Assembly: GCF_031180885.1 (NCBI RefSeq)
Contig: NZ_JAPSLK010000002.1
Coordinates: forward strand, 248,001-312,000
Length of the DNA stretch: 64,000 nt
Reading direction: 5' to 3'
Source of the DNA: Saccharothrix sp.
Lineage (GTDB): Bacteria > Actinomycetota > Actinomycetes > Mycobacteriales > Pseudonocardiaceae
Shown here: piece after piece, positions 7,673-59,869 of the stretch
How the letters are laid out: every line of letters begins with the position of its first letter
How positions within the stretch are numbered: the first letter of the stretch is position 1
Program-made: the position numbers and the translations under genes
The notes under the pieces: generated by a model
What the model was told of the DNA's origin: nothing
Databases searched by the model: none
What the model saw: the letters and a program-made list of their open reading frames with translations, nothing else

Positions 7673-9799
7673 TCACCGTTCGTCCTCGGGGCGCTTGCGG
7701 TTGCGCAGACCCAGCAGCCACGCCGCCGCCAGCAGCGCCAGACCGCCGGTCGCCATCGGGGCCGTCTCGGCGCGCGGGGCGCTGCGCGGCTGGCAGATCC
7801 GGCCGCCGCCACAGGGTTCGGTCTCCAGGTCGCGCACGGTCACGCTGCGGTGGTAGGAGTCGACCGACTGCCCGCCCGCGTGCGCCCGCACGACGATCCG
7901 GTTCGTGCCGTAGTCCACGTAGATCTCGACGGACCCACCGCTGCACGCGATCGGCACCGACGTGCCCCACGTGGTGTTGACGACCTCGCACGTGCCGCTG
8001 TGGTTGGCCCAGTCGGCCGGCGGCGCGGTGTTGACGATCCGGCTGAACATGTCGCCGGTCGCGCCCACGGACGAGATCACGACCGCGCCCGCGCTGGGCA
8101 GGCTGGGCGGCGGCGGTGTGGTGGTCGTGGTCGGCTGGGGCTGCGGCGGGGGCGTGGTCGTCGTGGTGGTCGGCCGCGGCTGGGTGGTCGTGGGCGCCAC
8201 GGCCGGCGGGCGCACCGAGAACGACGCCGTCCCGGCCTCGCCGGAGCCCGACGCGTTGTAGGCCACCACGGACACGTCGAGCCGCCCGCTGGCGCAGAAC
8301 GTGCCGCCCGCGCAGGACAGCGACAGGTCCGCGGACGTCCCGGCCACCTGCGTGGTCTTGCTGCCGCCGCTGAACCCGCCGCTCGCGGTCACCGAGTAGC
8401 CGGACACCGGTTCGCCGCTGTCCGGCGCGACGCCCCACGTCACGCGGACCACGACGGTGGAGCCGTCGTTGGACACCTGGTTCACCGCCACCCCCGGCGG
8501 CCGGCCGGGCGCGACGCCCTTCACCCCGGCGCTCGGGGTGGTCGTGACGGGCACGTCGGTGGTCGTCGTCGGGTCGCCACCGCCGCGCCGGTCGTCGTTC
8601 TTGGGCGGGTCGGGCCTGGGCGGCGGCGGGCTGGGGACGCTCGGGATGGGCGAGCGGTCCGGGTCGGTCACCGGGAGTTCGGGGCTGCGGATCACCACGT
8701 CCTTGGTGCGGCCGTCGGTGTCGACGATGACGCCGTTGGCCGCGCCGGGGGTGTTGATGAACAGCTTGCCGTCGTCGAACACCAGCTCTGGGTCGTTGCC
8801 GGGCGCGGGCACGTCCTGGCTGCCGCGCTTGCCCGACCGGTCCAGCACGACGACCTTGCCCGCGCCGCGGCACGGCACGTAGACGCGGTCGCGGAACACG
8901 GCGGGCCGACCGGGCCGGGCGCAGCCGTACTGGTTCATGTCGACGCGGACCACGTCGTCGTCCGACACCAGGACCACCGCGCCGGCGTCGGGCACCGAGG
9001 CGGGCACCAGGCCGGGCGGGCTGGTCTGGGCGGCCAGCACCTCGCCGGACAGCGAGTCGGTGCCCAGGGTGAGGTCGCGGGTGGTGCCGTCGCGGACGAC
9101 CACGCCGCCCTCCAGGCCGAGCAGGGTCACGCCGCGCTCGTGGGGCACCAGCGCGGTGCGCGGGCCGGCGCCGGGCACCGGCCGGTTGGACAGCTCGCGG
9201 AACTGCTCGACGTCCTCGGCCCACTCCAGCGCGTGCAGGTTGCCGCCGTGGTCGACCGCCCACACCACGCCCCGGTCGTCGGTGACGACGTCGGCCAGCG
9301 GCCGGCCCACCCGCCACGGCGCGCCGACGTCGGCGAGGGTGACCGGGTCGACGTTGTGGACGGTGCCCGCGTCGCGGTCGACCACGTAGATCCGGTCGTC
9401 GACGATCAGCACCTTCGGCGACTGCCCGGCCGGCGCCTGCCGACGGCCGCCGGCCAGCAGCGTGGCGAGGTCGATCACGGTGATCTGGCCGGTGCGGCGG
9501 TCCAGGACGATCAGCTTGTCGTCGGACTGCGCGATCTCCAGCCGGGCGTCGCCGCCGCTGACCTGCAGGCGGGTCTGCGGTTTGCCCGAACTCGGGTTGA
9601 CCTGCACAACCTCGCCGCGCTCGTCGTCACCCAGCCACGTCAGCCCGTCGGAGACGTCGACCGCGGTGCGCGCGATCCCGTTCCCCAGCGCCGCGCCGAC
9701 CAGCAGCAACACACCCAGCGACGCGGCCGTGGCACTCGCCGACCGGCGGCGGCCCAGGTCCGCGACGCGGCGCGCGATCGATCCCAGCTTTAACCCCAC
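7673..9799 (-). CDS. Membrane-anchored beta-propeller and Fn3 protein
   Basis: The 708-aa protein starts with a basic N-terminus and one membrane helix (SLGVLLLVGAALGNGIA). A region of propeller-like repeats follows (LIVLDRRTGQITVIDL, IYVVDRDAGTVHNVDP, VWAVDHGGNLHALEW, VVVLDRSGKRG and others), then Pro/Thr-rich linkers, one Fn3 domain (GRPPGVAVNQVS to SFSVRPP), a second Thr-rich linker, a small beta domain and a C-terminal helix GGLALLAAAWLLGL before an RKR tail. Topology suggests that the bulk is outside the cell. It is first in the operon with MoxR, DUF58 and the TgpA-like protein, so it is a candidate client or surface partner of that system. The start is GTG. No enzymatic motif was seen. 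Confidence 0.75.
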   Translation of the reverse strand: MGLKLGSIARRVADLGRRRSASATAASLGVLLLVGAALGNGIARTAVDVSDGLTWLGDDERGEVVQVNPSSGKPQTRLQVSGGDARLEIAQSDDKLIVLDRRTGQITVIDLATLLAGGRRQAPAGQSPKVLIVDDRIYVVDRDAGTVHNVDPVTLADVGAPWRVGRPLADVVTDDRGVVWAVDHGGNLHALEWAEDVEQFRELSNRPVPGAGPRTALVPHERGVTLLGLEGGVVVRDGTTRDLTLGTDSLSGEVLAAQTSPPGLVPASVPDAGAVVLVSDDDVVRVDMNQYGCARPGRPAVFRDRVYVPCRGAGKVVVLDRSGKRGSQDVPAPGNDPELVFDDGKLFINTPGAANGVIVDTDGRTKDVVIRSPELPVTDPDRSPIPSVPSPPPPRPDPPKNDDRRGGGDPTTTTDVPVTTTPSAGVKGVAPGRPPGVAVNQVSNDGSTVVVRVTWGVAPDSGEPVSGYSVTASGGFSGGSKTTQVAGTSADLSLSCAGGTFCASGRLDVSVVAYNASGSGEAGTASFSVRPPAVAPTTTQPRPTTTTTTPPPQPQPTTTTTPPPPSLPSAGAVVISSVGATGDMFSRIVNTAPPADWANHSGTCEVVNTTWGTSVPIACSGGSVEIYVDYGTNRIVVRAHAGGQSVDSYHRSVTVRDLETEPCGGGRICQPRSAPRAETAPMATGGLALLAAAWLLGLRNRKRPEDER

Positions 9800-52314: not shown

Positions 52315-55300
52315 TCAGGGGTGTTGGGCGAGCCAGCCGTGGTCGCCCTGGCGGGAGCGCTGCGCGAACGGGACCGCGATGTAGTTCTCCAGGCCCAGCA
52401 CCCCGCCCGTCGTCCGGTCCAGTTCCCGGGCGAAGCCGACGATGCCGCGATCGGTCCGGTCCATCAGCCAGGCCAGCAGGACCACCACGACGTCGGCCAG
52501 CACCCCGACCTGGAAGGGCATGTCGTCCCGGTTGCCGGCGGTCACGGCGTGCGCGAAGTCGGTCATGCCGCGTTCGGTCAGGTCGCGGGGGCCGATTTCG
52601 ATCGCGCGCTTCATCGAGTCCACGACCAGCGGCACCACGGCCGCCCACGTGGGCTGTTCGGCGGTCTCGCAGATCAGGCCGCCGCACAGGGCGGTGGTCC
52701 ACAGCGCCTCGGGGTCGTTCGCGCGGACCGCGCCCACGGCCAGGTTCGGCAGCAGAGCCGCGCCCTCTGCCCACAGGCCCTTGGCGACCAGGAGTTCCAC
52801 CGCGTGGCGGTAGTGCTCCAGGGCCTTGGCGTGGTCGCCCATCCGGGTCAGCACGCGACCCAGTTCGTCGTGGCAGGTGGCGATGTCGGCCGGTCTCGCT
52901 CGGCGTTCGGCCAGGGCGAGGGCGACGGTGGCGTAGTGCTGGGCGGTGTCGAGTTCGCCGAGGTCCTGGTGGCAGGCGCCCAGTTCGCGCAGCGCGGTCA
53001 GTTCGGCGGCCTCGTCGTGCTCGGCCCGGAACAGCTCGACCGCGCGCACACCGGCCTCGATCGCCGCGTCCAGGTTGCCGATGCGGCGGTGGCGGACGCA
53101 CTCCTCCAGCTTGAACTCGGCCTGCTTGCGCCGGTCGTCCAGCTCCACGGCCACGTCGTGGCCCTCCACGGCGTAGCGCAGCGCCGTCTCGTGGTCCTCA
53201 CCGCTCAGCTCACCCAGCACGCCGATCGCCTCCACCAGCCGCGTCCGACTGCCCCGTGCCCGGAACACGTCGTGCGCCTCCAGCGCGGCCCGCCGCGCAT
53301 CCTCCGGTCTGTCCTCGCGCACCAGCAGGCGCGCCATGCGCAGCAGGACGTCCGCCCGGTCCCGGCAGGCGTCACCACGCTCCACACACTTCTCGAAGTC
53401 CGCGAGTGCCGCGTCGTATTCCCCGCGGGCCTCGTGGGCGCGGCCGGTCAGCTCGTGGCGGCGGGCGCGGCGGGGCGCGGACTCGGGTTCGGGCAGGTCC
53501 AACTCGTCCAGCGCGGCGTCGACCAGGTCGGCCAGGGCCGGGTCGCCGGTCAGGGCGAGTTCGTCCAGCAGGACGTCCACATAGGACGGCGTGTCGGTGG
53601 CCCCGCGCTGTTCGGCGGTGCGGCGCAGCGCGGTGATCTCGCGGTGCAGCACCGAGGTGAGCGGTTCGGGGCACGTGCGGGCGAAGCGGCCGAGCAGTTC
53701 GGCCTCGGCCAGCGCGGCCTCGCCGTCCGTGGTGGACCGGTCGCGCCACTCGTCCAAGCGGCCGTTGACGGTGCCCAGGTACAGGTAGCAGCGCTCGATG
53801 CCGCCGGGGGTGCCGGTGTTGACGATGGCGTTGGCGGCGGGTGCTTCCTCGGCGGTCAGGCGGTGCACGACGGTGGCGGCGAAGCTCGTGGCCAGGCCCG
53901 GCGGGACGGTCCACAGGGTGCCGATGTAGCCGCGCGCGCCGGCGCGCAGGAAGGCGCGGCCGACCTCGGGCCACGGGCGGCGCGAGTTGTTGACCACGAT
54001 CGGGCGGTGGGCCAGGTGTGGGACGTCGGTGAGCGGTTCGTCGCCGAGCACGATGCCGTCATCGTCGCCGTGGGTGTTGAAGAAGACGAGTTCGACGGGC
54101 AGTTCGCCGGCGAGCGCGGCCAGGGCGGCGGGGGAGGCGTCCTCGGCGGACAGGACGAGCGGGTGGGTGAAGTGGCCGATCTCGTCGGTGTGGCCGGGTG
54201 GCGCGGCGGTGTCGAACACCAGGCTGAACGCGCCGGGTTCGCGGGCGGTGCCCTCGCCGTACAGTTCGGTCAGGACCACCAGGGTGGGGTCGGCGGCGAC
54301 GTGCCCGACGGGCTTGCGGGTCCAGTTCACGTCGTCGGTGCGGACGAAGGAGTAAGGAAGACCGGTGGTGAACGCCGTCAGCCTTCGATCCCCGACCGCG
54401 TCGATCACCTCCGCCGGGACCTGCGCGGTGACGACGGCTTCGAGCGCGGCGAACGGGTCGTGCTCGCCGGTCGAGAGGTAGCGCCACAGGGCTTCGACGA
54501 ACCCGATGCCCTTGACCGCGTCCCCTATCGCACGGGCGGCGGCGGTGACCCGGTCCTGCTCCTCGGCGATCACGCGGTGGACCTCGGTCAGGTCCGGGAC
54601 GGGGGTGGTGATCAGGGTGGCTTCCCGGTGGTGCGCGTACTGGGCGGCGACCAGGGCGTGGGCGGTGCCGGTGTCCTCGACCAGGACGGCTTCGTCGGTG
54701 TCCGGTTCTTCCGGTTGTGGGAGGTTTTCGACCCCGTCGACAATCCGGAGCGGACGGCCGGCGCGCAGCGCCGCGTACAGCGCTTGGACTTCCGTGCCAG
54801 GTGGGGCTTCGAGCGGTTCCGCGTCACCTACCCCCAACACCCGCCACGCGTCCTCGGCAAGGTCGGGGCTCGGGACCAGCCGGACGACGTCAAGCCCGTC
54901 GACCAGATCGCCCCCTTCGCCACACAACACCACCGCACGACGAACCCCGGTCTTGTGGAGCAGTTCCCTCAGCCGTTCCTGCTCGTCGTCCTCAACCACC
55001 ACCAACGGCGCGAACCCCGACAAACAGGACAACACAACCGCCGCTTCACTCACCTGGTCCGGCCGGCACACCACGGCGGTATCGGCAACCCCGTAGACAG
55101 GCGCGCTGGTGACGGTGACGTTCAACTCCGACTCCCCCGCCGGCAAGGCGACGCACACCCCGTCGTCCAGGGTCGTGCACGGCGAAGAGCCGCTGACGTG
55201 CAGGGAGACGTGGTCGGACAACGCGAACCGGACCCCGTCCGTCGTCTCGGTCCCGGGGGCGTCGACCTTGAGCCGCCACTCGGCCGGAGCGGGCAGGTCG

Positions 55301-55491
55301 AAGCGCTGCTTGAGCACCGTGCGGACGTGGCCGTCCCGGTGCTCGTCGACCAGGAGGTCGCGGGCGCCTGCCTCGGCGGTGAGGTGCTCGCTGACCGGCA
55401 AGGGCGGTTTGCGGTGCACGTCGAGGAGGACGGCACGCAGCAGCCCCGCCTCGAAGCGGAACCGGATTCCGTGCGGGGCACCGAGGTCCAC
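52315..55491 (-). CDS. CHAT-TPR protein, nucleophile Cys replaced
   Basis: The 1,058-aa cytosolic protein has an unrecognised N-terminal region (1-360), a CHAT (caspase-like) region at about 370-560 and a C-terminal array of TPR-type helical pairs (about 650-930; for example ALADFEKCVERGDACRDRAD and ALEHYRHAVELLVAKGLW). The CHAT His is in FFNTHGDDDG (H474). The usual N-A-C-x-S-G nucleophile motif reads VVNNSRRPW (N501, N502, S503), followed by the typical AFLRAGARGYIGTLW. Protease activity is therefore uncertain: either a Ser nucleophile or a pseudoenzyme. The start is GTG with no clear ribosome binding site. No neighbouring defence genes were recognised. Confidence 0.82.
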   Translation of the reverse strand: MDLGAPHGIRFRFEAGLLRAVLLDVHRKPPLPVSEHLTAEAGARDLLVDEHRDGHVRTVLKQRFDLPAPAEWRLKVDAPGTETTDGVRFALSDHVSLHVSGSSPCTTLDDGVCVALPAGESELNVTVTSAPVYGVADTAVVCRPDQVSEAAVVLSCLSGFAPLVVVEDDEQERLRELLHKTGVRRAVVLCGEGGDLVDGLDVVRLVPSPDLAEDAWRVLGVGDAEPLEAPPGTEVQALYAALRAGRPLRIVDGVENLPQPEEPDTDEAVLVEDTGTAHALVAAQYAHHREATLITTPVPDLTEVHRVIAEEQDRVTAAARAIGDAVKGIGFVEALWRYLSTGEHDPFAALEAVVTAQVPAEVIDAVGDRRLTAFTTGLPYSFVRTDDVNWTRKPVGHVAADPTLVVLTELYGEGTAREPGAFSLVFDTAAPPGHTDEIGHFTHPLVLSAEDASPAALAALAGELPVELVFFNTHGDDDGIVLGDEPLTDVPHLAHRPIVVNNSRRPWPEVGRAFLRAGARGYIGTLWTVPPGLATSFAATVVHRLTAEEAPAANAIVNTGTPGGIERCYLYLGTVNGRLDEWRDRSTTDGEAALAEAELLGRFARTCPEPLTSVLHREITALRRTAEQRGATDTPSYVDVLLDELALTGDPALADLVDAALDELDLPEPESAPRRARRHELTGRAHEARGEYDAALADFEKCVERGDACRDRADVLLRMARLLVREDRPEDARRAALEAHDVFRARGSRTRLVEAIGVLGELSGEDHETALRYAVEGHDVAVELDDRRKQAEFKLEECVRHRRIGNLDAAIEAGVRAVELFRAEHDEAAELTALRELGACHQDLGELDTAQHYATVALALAERRARPADIATCHDELGRVLTRMGDHAKALEHYRHAVELLVAKGLWAEGAALLPNLAVGAVRANDPEALWTTALCGGLICETAEQPTWAAVVPLVVDSMKRAIEIGPRDLTERGMTDFAHAVTAGNRDDMPFQVGVLADVVVVLLAWLMDRTDRGIVGFARELDRTTGGVLGLENYIAVPFAQRSRQGDHGWLAQHP

Positions 55492-55741: not shown

Positions 55742-57067
55742 TCAAGTGCCGGGGTGTTCGGAACGCGCGGCCGGCATCCAAGGGACTCGGCGGCGGCGGG
55801 CGGCTACCTGGAACTGGTCGCGGCCCTGGCGTTTGGCCTCGTACAGCGCCGCGTCGGCGGCGGCCAGCAGGCCCTCGATGGTGTCCTCGTCGACGAACGG
55901 CCACACCGCGATCCCGATGCTCACCGACAGCCCGCCCACGCGACCGCCCTCGGCATCGTCGGCCACCACGTGGTGCACCTGCCGCCGGATGCGTTCCGCG
56001 ATCGCCTCCGCCTCCGCCGGCTCGACACCGGGCAGCAGGACCGCGAACTCCTCACCACCGAACCGGCCCACCGCGTCACCCCGCCGGACGGCCCCGCTCA
56101 ACGCCACCGCGATCCGCCGCAGCACAGCGTCACCGATCTGGTGACCGTGCGTGTCGTTGATCTCCTTGAAGTGGTCCACGTCGATCATGAACAACCCGAC
56201 CGTCGCCCCCGGCGGCTGCCGGCGGGTCCGGTCGAGTTCCAGCGACGCCTGGAGGTGCCAAGCCTCGGCGTTGAGCAACCCGGTCTTGGCATCCGTCCGG
56301 GCGGCGAGTTCCAACTGGTGGATGAGGACCGTGCGGTGCAGGGCGACGGCGGCCACGACCATCGGCAGGGCGAAGCCCGGCCACCACGCCACCGCCAGCG
56401 CCACGAACACGCCCATCGCGAGCTGACCGGCCTCCAGCAGGTTGTCCGACGCACTGCCCACGGCGTCGCGCACCGAACGCGGCCGGACCGTCAGCAGGAT
56501 CACGATCGCCACCAGGGCCGTGTTCACCAGCCACTGCGCGGCACCCGCACCGACCAGGCCGACCAGGTCCAGCCACCCCGACGGACGCCCGGCGGCCAGG
56601 TGCTCGCGCAGGCCGGTCGCGCCCGCCACAGTGCCCGCGGCCAGCGTGGCGAGGACCATCATGGACGTGGTGAACACGTTCCGGTGCGGTGGCCGGGACG
56701 CGTCCCAGCGCCCCACCACCCACCAGCGGTGCGCGTACATGAGCACGACCAGCGCCACCGCGAGCAAGGGCGGCAGCACGAGGGCGCCGGCCAGCATCCA
56801 GATGCTGCACAGGTCGACGTGCGGCAGGTGGCTGTGGTCCCGCCGGATCCGCTCGATCCAGCGCGAGCTGTGCAGGTGCAGCGCGGCGCACCCCACCAGG
56901 ACGGCGAACACCGGCCACGCACCCGCCGGGACCGGCCACGCCGTGGTCGCCGCGATGGCGACCAGCGCGAGCAGATCCACCGACAGCACGTACACCAGGG
57001 CCTGCCGTGGCAGGGACCATAGTGACCAGCGTCGATCGCCCGACGACGCTGACCGCACTCTGCCCAT
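55742..57067 (-). CDS. Membrane diguanylate cyclase (GGDEF)
   Basis: The 441-aa protein has six or seven membrane helices (about 15-250) and a C-terminal GGDEF domain that makes cyclic di-GMP from GTP. The active-site motif is GGEEF (337-341) in GRFGGEEFAVLLPG, with the inhibitory site RRGD five residues upstream, so product inhibition is expected. HFKEINDTHGHQIGD and SVSIGIAV are typical. I chose the ATG at 57067 (MGRVRSASSG) with GAGGA just upstream; a GTG at 57121 would overlap the palindrome there. No PAS or other cytosolic sensor is seen, so the membrane part is the sensor. Confidence 0.9.
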   Translation of the reverse strand: MGRVRSASSGDRRWSLWSLPRQALVYVLSVDLLALVAIAATTAWPVPAGAWPVFAVLVGCAALHLHSSRWIERIRRDHSHLPHVDLCSIWMLAGALVLPPLLAVALVVLMYAHRWWVVGRWDASRPPHRNVFTTSMMVLATLAAGTVAGATGLREHLAAGRPSGWLDLVGLVGAGAAQWLVNTALVAIVILLTVRPRSVRDAVGSASDNLLEAGQLAMGVFVALAVAWWPGFALPMVVAAVALHRTVLIHQLELAARTDAKTGLLNAEAWHLQASLELDRTRRQPPGATVGLFMIDVDHFKEINDTHGHQIGDAVLRRIAVALSGAVRRGDAVGRFGGEEFAVLLPGVEPAEAEAIAERIRRQVHHVVADDAEGGRVGGLSVSIGIAVWPFVDEDTIEGLLAAADAALYEAKRQGRDQFQVAARRRRVPWMPAARSEHPGT

Positions 57068-57116
57068 GGTTCCTCGCGACCGTCTAACTCGGACCGTGAA
57101 CGCGTCCGAACGGACC

Positions 57117-57133
57117 GTCACAGTAATTGTGAC
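57117..57133. promoter_or_regulatory. Palindrome GTCACA-n5-TGTGAC
   Basis: Six-base perfect arms (57117-57122 and 57128-57133) lie between the divergent diguanylate cyclase gene and the MRDKIW mini-ORF array. It is the inside-out form of a CRP-type site (TGTGA-n6-TCACA), so I do not call it CRP. It may control one or both directions. Confidence 0.45.
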
Positions 57134-57187
57134 CTGGGCGGATGTCAGCCGCTAGCGGGGTGACGCGACCCACAGGAGGTGATTGCG

Positions 57188-57208
57188 GTGCGCGACAAGA
57201 TCTGGTGA
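57188..57208 (+). CDS. Mini-ORF 1 encoding hexapeptide MRDKIW
   Basis: Seven codons: GTG start, R-D-K-I-W, TGA. The Shine-Dalgarno AGGAGGTG (57174-57181) is fully complementary to the 16S rRNA 3' end and lies 6 nt upstream. Codons are identical to copies 2 and 3 except for the start codon (GTG instead of ATG), which supports selection for translation. It is too short for normal gene callers. Function unknown. Confidence 0.6.
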   Translation: MRDKIW

Positions 57209-57248
57209 GCACCCCTGGCCGCCGGGAGTTCGCGAGGGAGGTGAGGTC

Positions 57249-57269
57249 ATGCGCGACAAGATCTGGTGA
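57249..57269 (+). CDS. Mini-ORF 2 encoding hexapeptide MRDKIW
   Basis: ATG start, identical peptide, TGA stop. The Shine-Dalgarno GGGAGGTG (57236-57243) lies 5 nt upstream. It starts 61 nt after copy 1 and is in a different reading frame. The spacer after the stop begins ACCCCT as in copy 1. Confidence 0.6.
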   Translation: MRDKIW

Positions 57270-57312
57270 ACCCCTCGTGTCCGGGTCGAGTTCCGAGGGG
57301 AGGTGCGCCGCC

Positions 57313-57333
57313 ATGCGCGACAAGATCTGGTGA
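57313..57333 (+). CDS. Mini-ORF 3 encoding hexapeptide MRDKIW
   Basis: ATG start, identical peptide, TGA stop. The Shine-Dalgarno GGGGAGGTG (57297-57305) lies 7 nt upstream. It starts 64 nt after copy 2 and is in the third reading frame. CCCCTCG (57271-57277) can pair with CGAGGGG (57294-57300) beside this ribosome binding site, so access may depend on translation of copy 2. Confidence 0.6.
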   Translation: MRDKIW

Positions 57334-57379
57334 CGTCCGGGCGACGGTGCGGGCGCCGCGCGTTCGGCCGCGGCCCCGC

Positions 57380-58621
57380 TCACCGCCGGACCACCAACCA
57401 CAGGCAGGCCAGTCCGGCCCCCGCGCCGCTCACGACGAGCGCGGGAGCGAGTCCGGAAGCCTCGGCCAGGACGCCGCCGACGAGTGCGCCCAGCGGGGCC
57501 GTGCCCCAGACGGTGGTGCGGATCGCGGCGTTGACCCGGCCGTGCAGGGTGGGCGGGGTGAGCCGGTAGCGGATCGGCACCTGGAGCACGTGGTAGACCT
57601 GCACGCCCCACCACATCACGGCGATGCTCAACGGGTGCGCCACGACACCCGCGGCACCCAGCCCGGCCACGGCGATGGCGACCGGCATGGCACGTTCACC
57701 CAGTCGTGGAGCAACCAGCGCGCCCACGAGCCCGCCCGCCGCGCCGATGGCGAGCGTGAGACCGATCCGACCCGGTGACAGGCCTTCCCGCGCGAGGTGG
57801 AGCGGGAGTTGGGCCAGGAAAGCGCTTACCCAGAACATGTGGGTCGCGGTGCAGAGCGTGACCCGGCGCAACAGGCGCTGGCCGAACACAAGGCGCACCC
57901 CCGTCAGCACTCCCCCGCCGCGGTCGACGGTGTCGCGCACGCGGATGCCGGCGAGGGTGGCGGCGGAGACCAGGAAGCTGAGGGCGTCGGCGAGCAGTGC
58001 GACCGGGGCGCTGAACGTCGCGACCAGCCAGCCGGCGACGGCGGGTCCGGCGATCTGGGCGGTGGACTGGCTGGTCTCGAACGCGCCCTGGGCCCTCGTC
58101 AGGCGGTCGGGCGGGACGACGAGCGGGACGAGGGCGAGCGTCCCGATGTCCCCGAACACCGCGAACGCCCCCGCCGTGAACGCGACCGCGCACAGCAGTG
58201 GGACGGACAGGGTCCCGGTGACGTCGGCGAGCGGGACGACGGACAGGGCGGCGGCTTGGCCGAGGGCGCAGGTGACCAGGAGCGGGCGGCGGGGCAGGCG
58301 GTCGACCCAGGCGCCGGCGGGCAGGCCGAGGACCAGGTAGGGGGCGCGGGCGCAGGCGGCGAGGAGGCCCATGTCCCAGGCGGTGGCGCTCAGGGTGAGG
58401 GCGGCGACCAGGGGCAGGGCGAGCGCGGTGACCTGCGAGCCGGCGAGGGAGATCGACTGGCCGGACCAGAGCAGCAGGAACGCCCGATCACGCCGCAACG
58501 CCCGCTCGTCGTGCCCGGTGACAGGCCGCCGGTCGCTCTGCCGCGACTCACGCCGATCTCCGGCCCCCGGTGCCGACTCAGGCCGATCTCCGGCCCCCGG
58601 TTCCATTGTCCCACGAGGCAC
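57380..58621 (-). CDS. MFS transporter
   Basis: The 413-aa protein has 12 predicted helices (RRDRAFLLLWSGQSISLAGSQVTALALPL at helix 1, GAWVDRLPRRPLLVTC after helix 2), resembling MFS_3-type drug exporters. The N-terminal 33 residues are hydrophilic and contain a repeat (GAGDRPES, GAGDRRES) that comes from a 30-bp DNA duplication. The GTG at 58621, with GAGGG 9 nt upstream, is taken; an ATG at 58606 is possible. It lies 12 nt after the upstream MFS gene, so they form an operon. Confidence 0.85.
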   Translation of the reverse strand: MPRGTMEPGAGDRPESAPGAGDRRESRQSDRRPVTGHDERALRRDRAFLLLWSGQSISLAGSQVTALALPLVAALTLSATAWDMGLLAACARAPYLVLGLPAGAWVDRLPRRPLLVTCALGQAAALSVVPLADVTGTLSVPLLCAVAFTAGAFAVFGDIGTLALVPLVVPPDRLTRAQGAFETSQSTAQIAGPAVAGWLVATFSAPVALLADALSFLVSAATLAGIRVRDTVDRGGGVLTGVRLVFGQRLLRRVTLCTATHMFWVSAFLAQLPLHLAREGLSPGRIGLTLAIGAAGGLVGALVAPRLGERAMPVAIAVAGLGAAGVVAHPLSIAVMWWGVQVYHVLQVPIRYRLTPPTLHGRVNAAIRTTVWGTAPLGALVGGVLAEASGLAPALVVSGAGAGLACLWLVVRR

Positions 58622-58633
58622 CGACAGTTTCCC

Positions 58634-59869
58634 TCAGTCGTCGCTGGGAAGCGCAGTCGCGGAAACCCTGGCCCAAGCCGCAGCAACGGCCACGGACGCG
58701 ATCACACCGGCGACACCCGCATAGGCGATCGCAGTACCCGCAGAACCCAAAGCAGCAGCCAGCAACCCACCCCCAGCCACACCAATCCCCTGAGCCGCGA
58801 CCAACCCACTCCGCGCAAAACCAAGCGCCTGCCCACGATGGGCGTCCGGCACCAACCGAACAAAAGTCGCCCCCGCAGTCACCTGATAAGCGCTGGCCAC
58901 CCCACTCAGCGCCAACAACGCGACAGCCCCCACCAACCCAGGCGCCACCAAGTACCCCACCAGCGGCAACGCCGTCGCCACGGCCAACAAACCCAACAGC
59001 CGCACCCGCCGACCCGTCGGCAAGAACCGCAGCAGCACCGTCCCCAGCACCATCCCCGCCGGGTCCGCCGCCAGCAGCAGCCCCACCCCCTCGGCACCCA
59101 CCCCGACCTCCGCCGAGAAGGGCGCGGCCAACCCCTCCGGCACCACCGTGAACAGCGCCAGCCACCCCAACGCCACCAGCAGCCGCAACCGCCGGTCCCG
59201 CCACACCAGCACCGCCCCCGTCCGGATGCGGAACCCGACCCGGGTCACCGCCCCCGCCGCGGGTCGCGCCCGCAACCCGAAGCGCAGCAACAACGCCGAC
59301 ACCGCGAAAGTCAACGCATCCGCGACGAGCGCCCCGGACGTCCCCAACCACGCCACCACCAGCCCACCACCCGCGAACCCGAGCAGCAGCCCGGCCTGGT
59401 GGGTGATCAGGTGCACAGACTGCCCCGCCTCGTACCGGTCCCCCAACACCGTCGGCAGCAACGCCCCCTGAGCCGCGGCGAACGGCGGCTCGGCCAGTTG
59501 CGCCACCACCAACAACACCGCGACCAGCGGCAACGGCACACCAGGCACAGCCATCAGGGCCAGCAGCACCGCCCGCAGCAGGTCCGCAGCGACCATCACC
59601 GCCCGCCGCGGAAACCGATCAGCCAGACCGGACAGCAGCACACCGGACACCAGCGCCGGGAGCATGGTCAACGCGTACGTCAACGCGGTCCACGCGGCCG
59701 AGCCCGTCCGCTGGAACACCAGCACCGACAGCGCCACCCGCGCCAACTGGTCGCCCACGGTCGACAGGGCCGCCGCGCACCACAGCACCCGGAACTCGGG
59801 CACCGCGAACGCCGCCCGGAAACCCGTCCCCATGCTCCTCCGATGAGTTTCCGCGTGCGGTCCCGTCAT
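58634..59869 (-). CDS. MFS transporter
   Basis: The 411-aa protein has 12 predicted helices (FRVLWCAAALSTVGDQLARVALSVLVFQRTG, SGLADRFPRRAVMV loop). It is probably a drug or metabolite exporter and a distant paralogue of the next gene. The start ATG at 59869 has no good ribosome binding site; an ATG at 59833 (MGTGFRAAF) follows GGAGGA at short spacing and could be the true start. It is divergent from the ECF sigma gene. Confidence 0.83.
   Translation of the reverse strand: MTGPHAETHRRSMGTGFRAAFAVPEFRVLWCAAALSTVGDQLARVALSVLVFQRTGSAAWTALTYALTMLPALVSGVLLSGLADRFPRRAVMVAADLLRAVLLALMAVPGVPLPLVAVLLVVAQLAEPPFAAAQGALLPTVLGDRYEAGQSVHLITHQAGLLLGFAGGGLVVAWLGTSGALVADALTFAVSALLLRFGLRARPAAGAVTRVGFRIRTGAVLVWRDRRLRLLVALGWLALFTVVPEGLAAPFSAEVGVGAEGVGLLLAADPAGMVLGTVLLRFLPTGRRVRLLGLLAVATALPLVGYLVAPGLVGAVALLALSGVASAYQVTAGATFVRLVPDAHRGQALGFARSGLVAAQGIGVAGGGLLAAALGSAGTAIAYAGVAGVIASVAVAAAWARVSATALPSDD

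Follow-up and report, generated by a model that had tools for sequence, protein, structure and literature searches.

Tandem hexapeptide mini-genes linked to a membrane diguanylate cyclase in Saccharothrix and its relatives, a candidate peptide signalling system of actinobacteria

A stretch of 64,000 nucleotides from Saccharothrix sp. (contig NZ_JAPSLK010000002.1, positions 248,001 to 312,000 of the forward strand; the window from here on) contains three tandem mini-genes, each with its own Shine-Dalgarno (SD) sequence and each encoding the hexapeptide MRDKIW. In the genomes compared, such arrays of very short open reading frames (ORFs) are linked to the gene of a membrane diguanylate cyclase and to a transporter of the major facilitator superfamily (MFS), and the comparison strongly supports that the array encodes an ORF-derived peptide under constraint at the amino-acid level. 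We think it probable (roughly 0.6) that this is a multi-copy peptide signal, exported by the MFS transporter and sensed by the cyclase, which would in this way set the level of cyclic di-GMP (c-di-GMP).

The three units of the window (Table 1) share a single seven-codon sequence, start-CGC-GAC-AAG-ATC-TGG-TGA, and both a re-reading of the sequence and a pattern scan bore out the original prediction of three mini-genes with the same codons. The SD, predicted to be of GGAGGTG type and to lie 5-7 nt before the start, ends 6, 5 and 7 nt upstream of units 1, 2 and 3 (8, 7 and 9 nt if counted from the end of GGAGG), and the units do occupy three different reading frames (positions 2, 0 and 1 mod 3). 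When both strands of the window were scanned for GGAGG followed by 4-9 nt, a start, five codons and a stop, the three array units were the only hexapeptide ORFs retrieved. The 18-base core is found in exactly three exact copies in the 9.46 Mb assembly, all at the array, and the reversed pattern has no match in the assembly. An Rfam scan of positions 56500-58000 gave one sub-threshold, unrelated match outside the array, and a viral_contigs scan gave 0 matches.

A degenerate pattern of the unit matched in 21 of 149 genomes (that of the window included), always as one cluster of 1-4 units, and also in 14 stretches from genomes of Saccharothrix, Umezawaea, Lentzea, Kutzneria and Actinophytocola. 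Codons 2-7 were identical at every match listed, though the pattern permitted synonyms. Unit 1 of the window is also present in the arrays of relatives, where SD, start, core and stop are kept while spacers and flanks diverge, in agreement with the proposal that what is conserved is the mini-ORF as such. The ACCCCT and GTTC-GAGG blocks that had been pointed out in the spacers are shared locally but are not kept in the relatives compared. The GTG of unit 1 had been read as a change that preserves initiation, and ATG, GTG and (at one locus) TTG do exchange among the units of relatives. Copies that keep the DNA repeat and break the start, stop or SD had been named as evidence against the mini-gene; they were seen only at two loci, as copies that look decayed and have intact copies alongside. 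At locus L011 changed codons turn the middle copy into RDRTW, its start and stop being intact, and at L021 one copy is without its stop. A search allowing two mismatches extended the matches to 55 of 390 genomes of the family and gave clustered variants (MREKIW, MRNKSW, MRNKNW, MRGKNW), and the single matches MRDKGW and MRDNNW turned out to sit in arrays of their own. Six further stretches with single matches, among the matches listed, were fetched. Two of them (L269 and L270) are fused precursors adjoining an MFS of the array type, while L271-L274, which have no sensor or MFS of the array kind, were taken as chance; three of these four matches form the C-terminus of a much larger open frame (432-733 codons), and an SD is missing from the remaining one.

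Twenty loci of 18-19 kb were fetched and their ORFs clustered together with those of the window. A divergent GGDEF protein and a convergent MFS transporter were present in 21 of these 21 loci, which come from six genus groups (the member of the GGDEF cluster at L081, and one at L078, is a shadow ORF that lies downstream from the array, and the true cyclases were located separately). The array had been described as standing alone between two minus-strand genes. Both flanking genes are indeed on the opposite strand, and the array is not the leader of a downstream gene, but its isolation was a misreading because the GGDEF and MFS neighbours are conserved partners.

Another way into the family is the sensor of the cyclase. 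An alignment of the array-linked sensors (A1), used as search query, found matches in 77 of 394 genomes when the class was searched (E 1e-10 or better), in 328 of 390 for the own family (1e-25) and in 18 of 22 for family f34, which we take to be Micromonosporaceae. Most of the f34 cyclases have heptapeptide arrays upstream (e.g. MRDTTWS, MRDNTWT, MRDSNWT, MRDNNWN), mostly with an MFS. The nearest homologue of the window's sensor, from S. variisporea, is 95% identical over it. Among the 178 sensor ORFs of at least 80 bits in the fetched loci, 109 have upstream mini-ORFs with Trp at position 6, as our scan required (W-type). For a control we have used the 118 loci with a sensor of at least 150 bits and no second sensor within 600 bp, 21 of them picked first by peptide (all positive) and 97 fetched via the sensor. 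One or more units were detected in 95 of these loci, and two or more sharing a core in 69, against 1 and 0 on the opposite strand, 0 and 0 in equal lengths inside the GGDEF gene, and 22 and 0 of 2360 Markov shuffles. Counting the sensor-fetched loci only, 74 of 97 were positive for W-type units, or 68 of 91 when the six loci with a prior two-mismatch peptide match (L230, L253, L256, L263, L265, L268) are excluded.

In 66 of the 97 sensor-fetched loci an MFS of the array profile is encoded on the minus strand no more than 2.3 kb away, two of these assignments being weak (L213 with 64 bits, L245 with 167 bits). All 66 hold short peptide units in the gap, 57 of W-type found by the scanner and nine of other forms read by eye, a reading that was not blind and had no control (52 and nine of 61 without the six loci above). 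The nine comprise variant arrays (MGNKDW at L203, MSNRDN/VRNRDN at L212, MRTREH three times at L217, MRGRDY at L223, MSKDWN/VSKDWN five times at L238) and fused precursors (L118, L209, L213, L215). The 31 loci without such an MFS in range include 17 with W-type matches, the one at L221 being probably a chance match next to a real MCSRDN/MRSRDN array, and four with other forms (fused at L211 and L214, MRNKDL at L216, a MANRDN-type array at L220); MRTNEIW at L208 is doubtful, and nine showed no units on inspection (the second sensor of L118, L201, L206, L207, L219, L222, L224, L246 and L261, with just 328 bp available for reading at L219). A search of actinobacterial genomes for units, copies and neighbours had been suggested as a check; the searches described here found arrays, accompanied by a GGDEF protein and in most cases by an MFS. 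Among the distant cyclases (L138-L146, families f31, f32 and f41; 82-86 bits) units of the scanned type were found in one of nine (MRSIIWT at L144, f32), and no MFS of the array profile was seen beside them. Inspection by eye gave single SD-led MLRGVTWI (L139), MLRGVTWT (L142) and VSSGVQWV (L140), all in f31.

The W-type units collected in this way (497 units in 109 arrays of 1-22 units each, a few units beside split genes being counted twice) show that it is the peptide that is conserved. Within arrays codons 2-6 are 94% identical, as compared with 43% for the first 15 nt behind the stop codon and 40% for the stretch from -40 to -21, and the ratio of non-synonymous to synonymous differences (pN/pS) is 0.28. 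Synonymous codons exchange, both for serine at position 5 (AGC 102, TCC 43, AGT 3) and for arginine at position 2 (CGC 308, CGT 122, CGG 14, CGA 2). The offsets of consecutive units fall in all residues mod 3 (0 in 152, 1 in 124 and 2 in 112 cases). The peptides have 6 (223 units), 7 (173), 8 (92), 9 (1) or 10 (8) residues, so that 274 of 497 extend by 1-4 residues beyond the Trp. Their general pattern is M, then R (less often S, T, Q and others), then D, N, G and others, followed by x-x-W. Across the family the peptides differ from clade to clade (MRDKIW, MRNKSW, MRDNNWTR, MRDTTWS, MRGNSWD, MANRDN), and in some sub-families the W is replaced by a terminal N, H, F, Y or L. Units with a sixth residue other than Trp (MANRDN, MCSRDN, MRTREH, VTDRDF) were seen upstream of an array-type cyclase at L220, L221, L217, L225, L227 and L228.

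In several loci a single SD-led ORF stands at the position of the array and contains the core repeated inside. The precursor of L215 reads MSITPGNEWNFCGNEWTARGNEWSFRGNEWTARGNEWSFRGNEWTRGTTGCPR; L213 has four GNEWT repeats, L211 six STDWT, L214 four GSEWH, and L209 has DSNW twice and DAHW twice. At L118 there are four complete MRDTNWVLRDTNWSW ORFs and one more interrupted by a run of N. The fused ORFs of L269 (MRNRGWAARGKNWRGKNWREVVRNKSW, positions 8212-8295 of the locus) and L270 (MTNKDWTARGKNWAVRNKSW, positions 8012-8074), both from genomes of the window's genus, hold GKNW, NKSW and NKDW, cores of several sub-families that are made as single units at other loci; an array-type MFS is adjacent in both (in L270 just a frame of 256 residues), and no sensor was found in 17 kb. 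None of five fused precursors tested gave a Pfam or NCBIfam family above cut-off. Since the core persists in these precursors, it is the peptide, and not initiation or termination, that is the kept feature, and any explanation in which the core has to be framed by a start and a stop is strongly disfavoured. The precursors point to a mature core of approximately [DNG]-x-x-W, usually after Arg, that would be cut out of them.

From its residues the cyclase is predicted to be an active enzyme. The active-site GG(D/E)EF motif and the RxxD I-site are both present, R328, D331 and GGEEF 337-341 showing little or no variation across 60 sequences, and PF00990 was detected in 66 of 67 sensor homologues (the remaining one is without any Pfam entry). 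Structure models were obtained with predicted local distance difference test (pLDDT) scores of 91.0 and 92.9. In a Foldseek search with the full-length protein all 50 matches listed were GGDEF/diguanylate cyclase structures or response regulators carrying GGDEF. The modelled sensor domain may resemble the ligand-binding, six-helix S-components of energy-coupling factor (ECF) transporters (RibU, BioY, ThiT, PanT). It differs from them in its low identity (8-14%) and in being linked to GGDEF and not to an ECF module. We regard this cyclase as the probable receptor of the peptide and the array-type MFS, which is distantly similar, at scores below cut-off, to models of EntS and of H+ antiporters, as its probable exporter.

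The remaining features of the locus are collected in Table 1. A second, different MFS gene separates the array from the array-type MFS. It is probably an insertion in a sub-lineage, because nothing intervenes at L085 and L086, where the array is directly followed by its MFS. Of 20 loci searched, 17 (the window's own among them) have an inverted repeat GTCAC-N5to9-GTGAC at most 200 bp ahead of their first exact unit; the repeat may be an operator for common control of the divergent genes. A TPR-CHAT protein (52315-55491, minus strand) is encoded two genes from the array and is not among the neighbour clusters listed.

Table 1. Coordinates of the peptide units and of neighbouring features, in positions of the window
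Feature	Position	Strand	Description
Unit 1	57175..57208	+	SD GGAGG 57175-57179; mini-ORF GTG CGC GAC AAG ATC TGG TGA 57188-57208 (fMRDKIW)
Unit 2	57237..57269	+	SD 57237-57241; mini-ORF ATG...TGA 57249-57269 (MRDKIW)
Unit 3	57299..57333	+	SD 57299-57303; mini-ORF ATG...TGA 57313-57333 (MRDKIW)
Membrane diguanylate cyclase (probable receptor)	55742..57067	-	multi-helix membrane sensor and GGDEF; Pfam PF00990, E 3.1e-42; start chosen ATG 57067
MFS transporter, array type (probable exporter)	58634..59869	-	cluster in 21/21 loci; Pfam MFS_1
Second, different MFS	57380..58621	-	between array and array-type MFS; Pfam MFS_1/MFS_3; 67 bits against the array-MFS profile
Inverted repeat GTCACAGTAATTGTGAC	57117..57133		between divergent GGDEF gene and array; GTCAC-N7-GTGAC

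According to the mechanism that we propose, each unit would be a complete cistron translated from its own SD into (f)Met-Arg-Asp-Lys-Ile-Trp, repetition would raise the dose of peptide, and separate units would be interchangeable with fused precursors. The peptide would probably leave the cell through the convergent MFS transporter. The diguanylate cyclase, whose gene is divergent, would probably sense it at the membrane with its putative S-component-like sensor, so that the level of peptide sets c-di-GMP. Expression, export, extracellular sensing, the sign of the effect on c-di-GMP and the downstream targets are all parts that we infer from sequence.

Paralogous cyclases within a genome come with peptides of their own, in the manner of separate channels. 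A tree of 98 sensors requires 41 changes of core for 87 mini-ORF systems, as compared with a mean of 72 (minimum 68 of 200) after shuffling, so in these sequences peptide type follows receptor type, a pattern also predicted by common descent. Twenty genomes have at least two W-type systems among the fetched loci, and in 19 of them all cores differ; the lone repeat (in genome G382) comes from two overlapping ORF fragments that share an array and look like one split cyclase gene. A core is shared in one of 30 pairs within genomes vs 296 of 5748 pairs between genomes. Paralogues thus have different peptides, but at a frequency that does not exceed chance, and selection for difference is not shown. 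In the genome of the window a second system (L155:7803-8160; contig C51 of G000 near 855.4 kb) comprises one SD-led MRNREW, its own cyclase and an array-type MFS. A third sensor paralogue of this genome (L156, contig C37 near 95.4 kb; 92 bits) has upstream one SD-led ORF of 13 codons, VSVPPLCGDREWT, whose end resembles the NREW core. In genus g5 (L068, L070, L073, L229, L231, L247) up to four GGDEF paralogues stand in a row, and some of the gaps between them hold an array of their own with a different peptide, e.g. MRNRDWT beside VRNKSW.

Other explanations have to be weighed against an exported signal. The peptide could stay inside the cell and, like a very small regulatory subunit, act directly on the cyclase's membrane domain, with the MFS removing it or having another substrate. 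In favour of this, the peptides are without signal sequence, and the GGDEF partner is present at L235, L237, L242 and L248, where the stretch fetched showed no MFS; however, peptide and MFS without GGDEF also occur (L269, L270), and the spacers of the fused precursors imply proteolytic maturation, so that we consider this explanation unlikely.

A further alternative is that the array is the precursor of a ribosomally synthesized and post-translationally modified peptide (RiPP), modified for example by a Trp cross-link into a secreted product whose production the cyclase would regulate. The original prediction had listed a RiPP or pheromone precursor among the possible roles and compared it to biarylitides; a peptide precursor is indeed the best of the roles listed, and it is the likeness to biarylitides that fails. 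The biarylitide literature (PMC13417212) shows that RiPP genes of 18 bp exist in actinobacteria, missed by annotation and encoding the peptide directly, and gives the precursor motif as the pentapeptide MxYxY/H. The intact few-codon cistron is common to both cases, and the retention of Trp in most sub-families and the usually adjacent MFS would also suit a RiPP. Unlike biarylitides, in which the partner is a cytochrome P450, the units described here accompany a GGDEF protein, in most cases together with an MFS, are repeated up to 22 times, have 6-10 residues and carry R-[DNG]-x-x-W instead of MxYxY/H as far as that source defines it. Among 83 array loci with a length of 9 kb or more, 3 had the P450 haem signature in an ORF of more than 300 aa, and clustering of ORFs from the 21 loci revealed no modifying-enzyme gene as a neighbour common across genera, other enzyme classes not having been scanned one by one. 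Together with the absence of any Pfam or NCBIfam family above cut-off from the five fused precursors tested, this makes a RiPP quite improbable.

Regulatory minigenes that act through translation, by sensing tRNA-Trp, stalling, peptidyl-tRNA drop-off or ribosome titration, had also been suggested. Strong SDs, very short ORFs and, in the window, a Trp codon before the stop are what one would expect of them, and the bar minigenes of phage lambda, which cause peptidyl-tRNA drop-off, likewise combine a strong SD with a very short ORF. Unlike bar, the family described here has an amino-acid sequence conserved across genera, fused forms and defined partners. Most cores of the fused ORFs adjoin neither start nor stop, and sensing of tRNA-Trp, stalling and drop-off are therefore not supported; the extensions past the Trp and the sub-families without Trp also speak against them. 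A drop-off minigene or attenuator leader would depend on a short ORF that stops close to its start or precedes a downstream gene; here the cores also occur fused within a single ORF, and the flanking genes are on the other strand. The array RNA is no more structured than shuffled sequences (z +1.86; z -1.21 for the downstream stretch, neither notable). We consider these roles very improbable. A DNA- or RNA-level repeat (operator or structural RNA) readable as ORFs by accident is hardly credible, since the identical codons 2-7 and the MREKIW units of the two-mismatch search would fit it but synonymous exchange in the wider family, three start codons, spacings in every residue mod 3 and an SD kept at variable distance do not.

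An exported peptide signal has several well-known counterparts. Gram-positive pheromones comprise the RRNPP systems, with a pre-pro peptide, a secretion signal and a cytosolic TPR receptor, and agr, with a histidine kinase and AgrB. Like Phr/RRNPP and agr, the arrays involve a short peptide that is probably exported and probably sensed by the product of an adjacent gene, with peptides that differ between paralogous sets. Unlike them, the units, of 6-10 residues each, are not pre-pro peptides with a signal sequence, and the candidate receptor is a membrane diguanylate cyclase. The neighbours common to the 21 loci are GGDEF and MFS proteins and not a TPR receptor, and neither a kinase nor an AgrB-like protein was detected among seven neighbouring proteins of the window (nor do the sensor homologues, with their PF00990, suggest a histidine kinase). 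Yeast alpha-factor precursors carry several copies of the peptide per gene, and the fused forms of L209, L211, L213, L214, L215 and L269 are similarly multi-copy, but these are bacterial and the usual form is that of separate cistrons, each with its SD. The system works like a peptide pheromone system, yet it lacks the tested features of RRNPP, agr, biarylitides and minigenes. No published description was found in full-text literature searches, which reach few subscription journals and no bioRxiv; a match to the string MRNKSW was, by its title, an unrelated T-cell-receptor paper.

Judged by its sequences, this looks like a peptide signalling system of actinobacteria that has not been described before. 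We would give even odds to its being a large, undescribed class of cell-cell signalling, with 6-10-residue peptides from tandem or fused genes, dedicated MFS transporters, one-protein receptors that turn peptide binding directly into c-di-GMP by way of an S-component-like domain in the membrane, several distinct channels in each genome and a spread over at least two actinobacterial families. If so, filamentous actinobacteria would own a peptide quorum-sensing language, whose signals ordinary annotation misses because the genes are 7-11 codons long. PMC4151990 describes c-di-GMP as controlling the development of sporulating actinomycetes through BldD; peptide signals would then be coupled directly to c-di-GMP and hence to development, and possibly to antibiotic production. 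The family would also be a clear case of single-peptide cistrons and fused precursors substituting for each other in evolution, and would provide a set of peptide-receptor pairs with natural variants that is open to testing.
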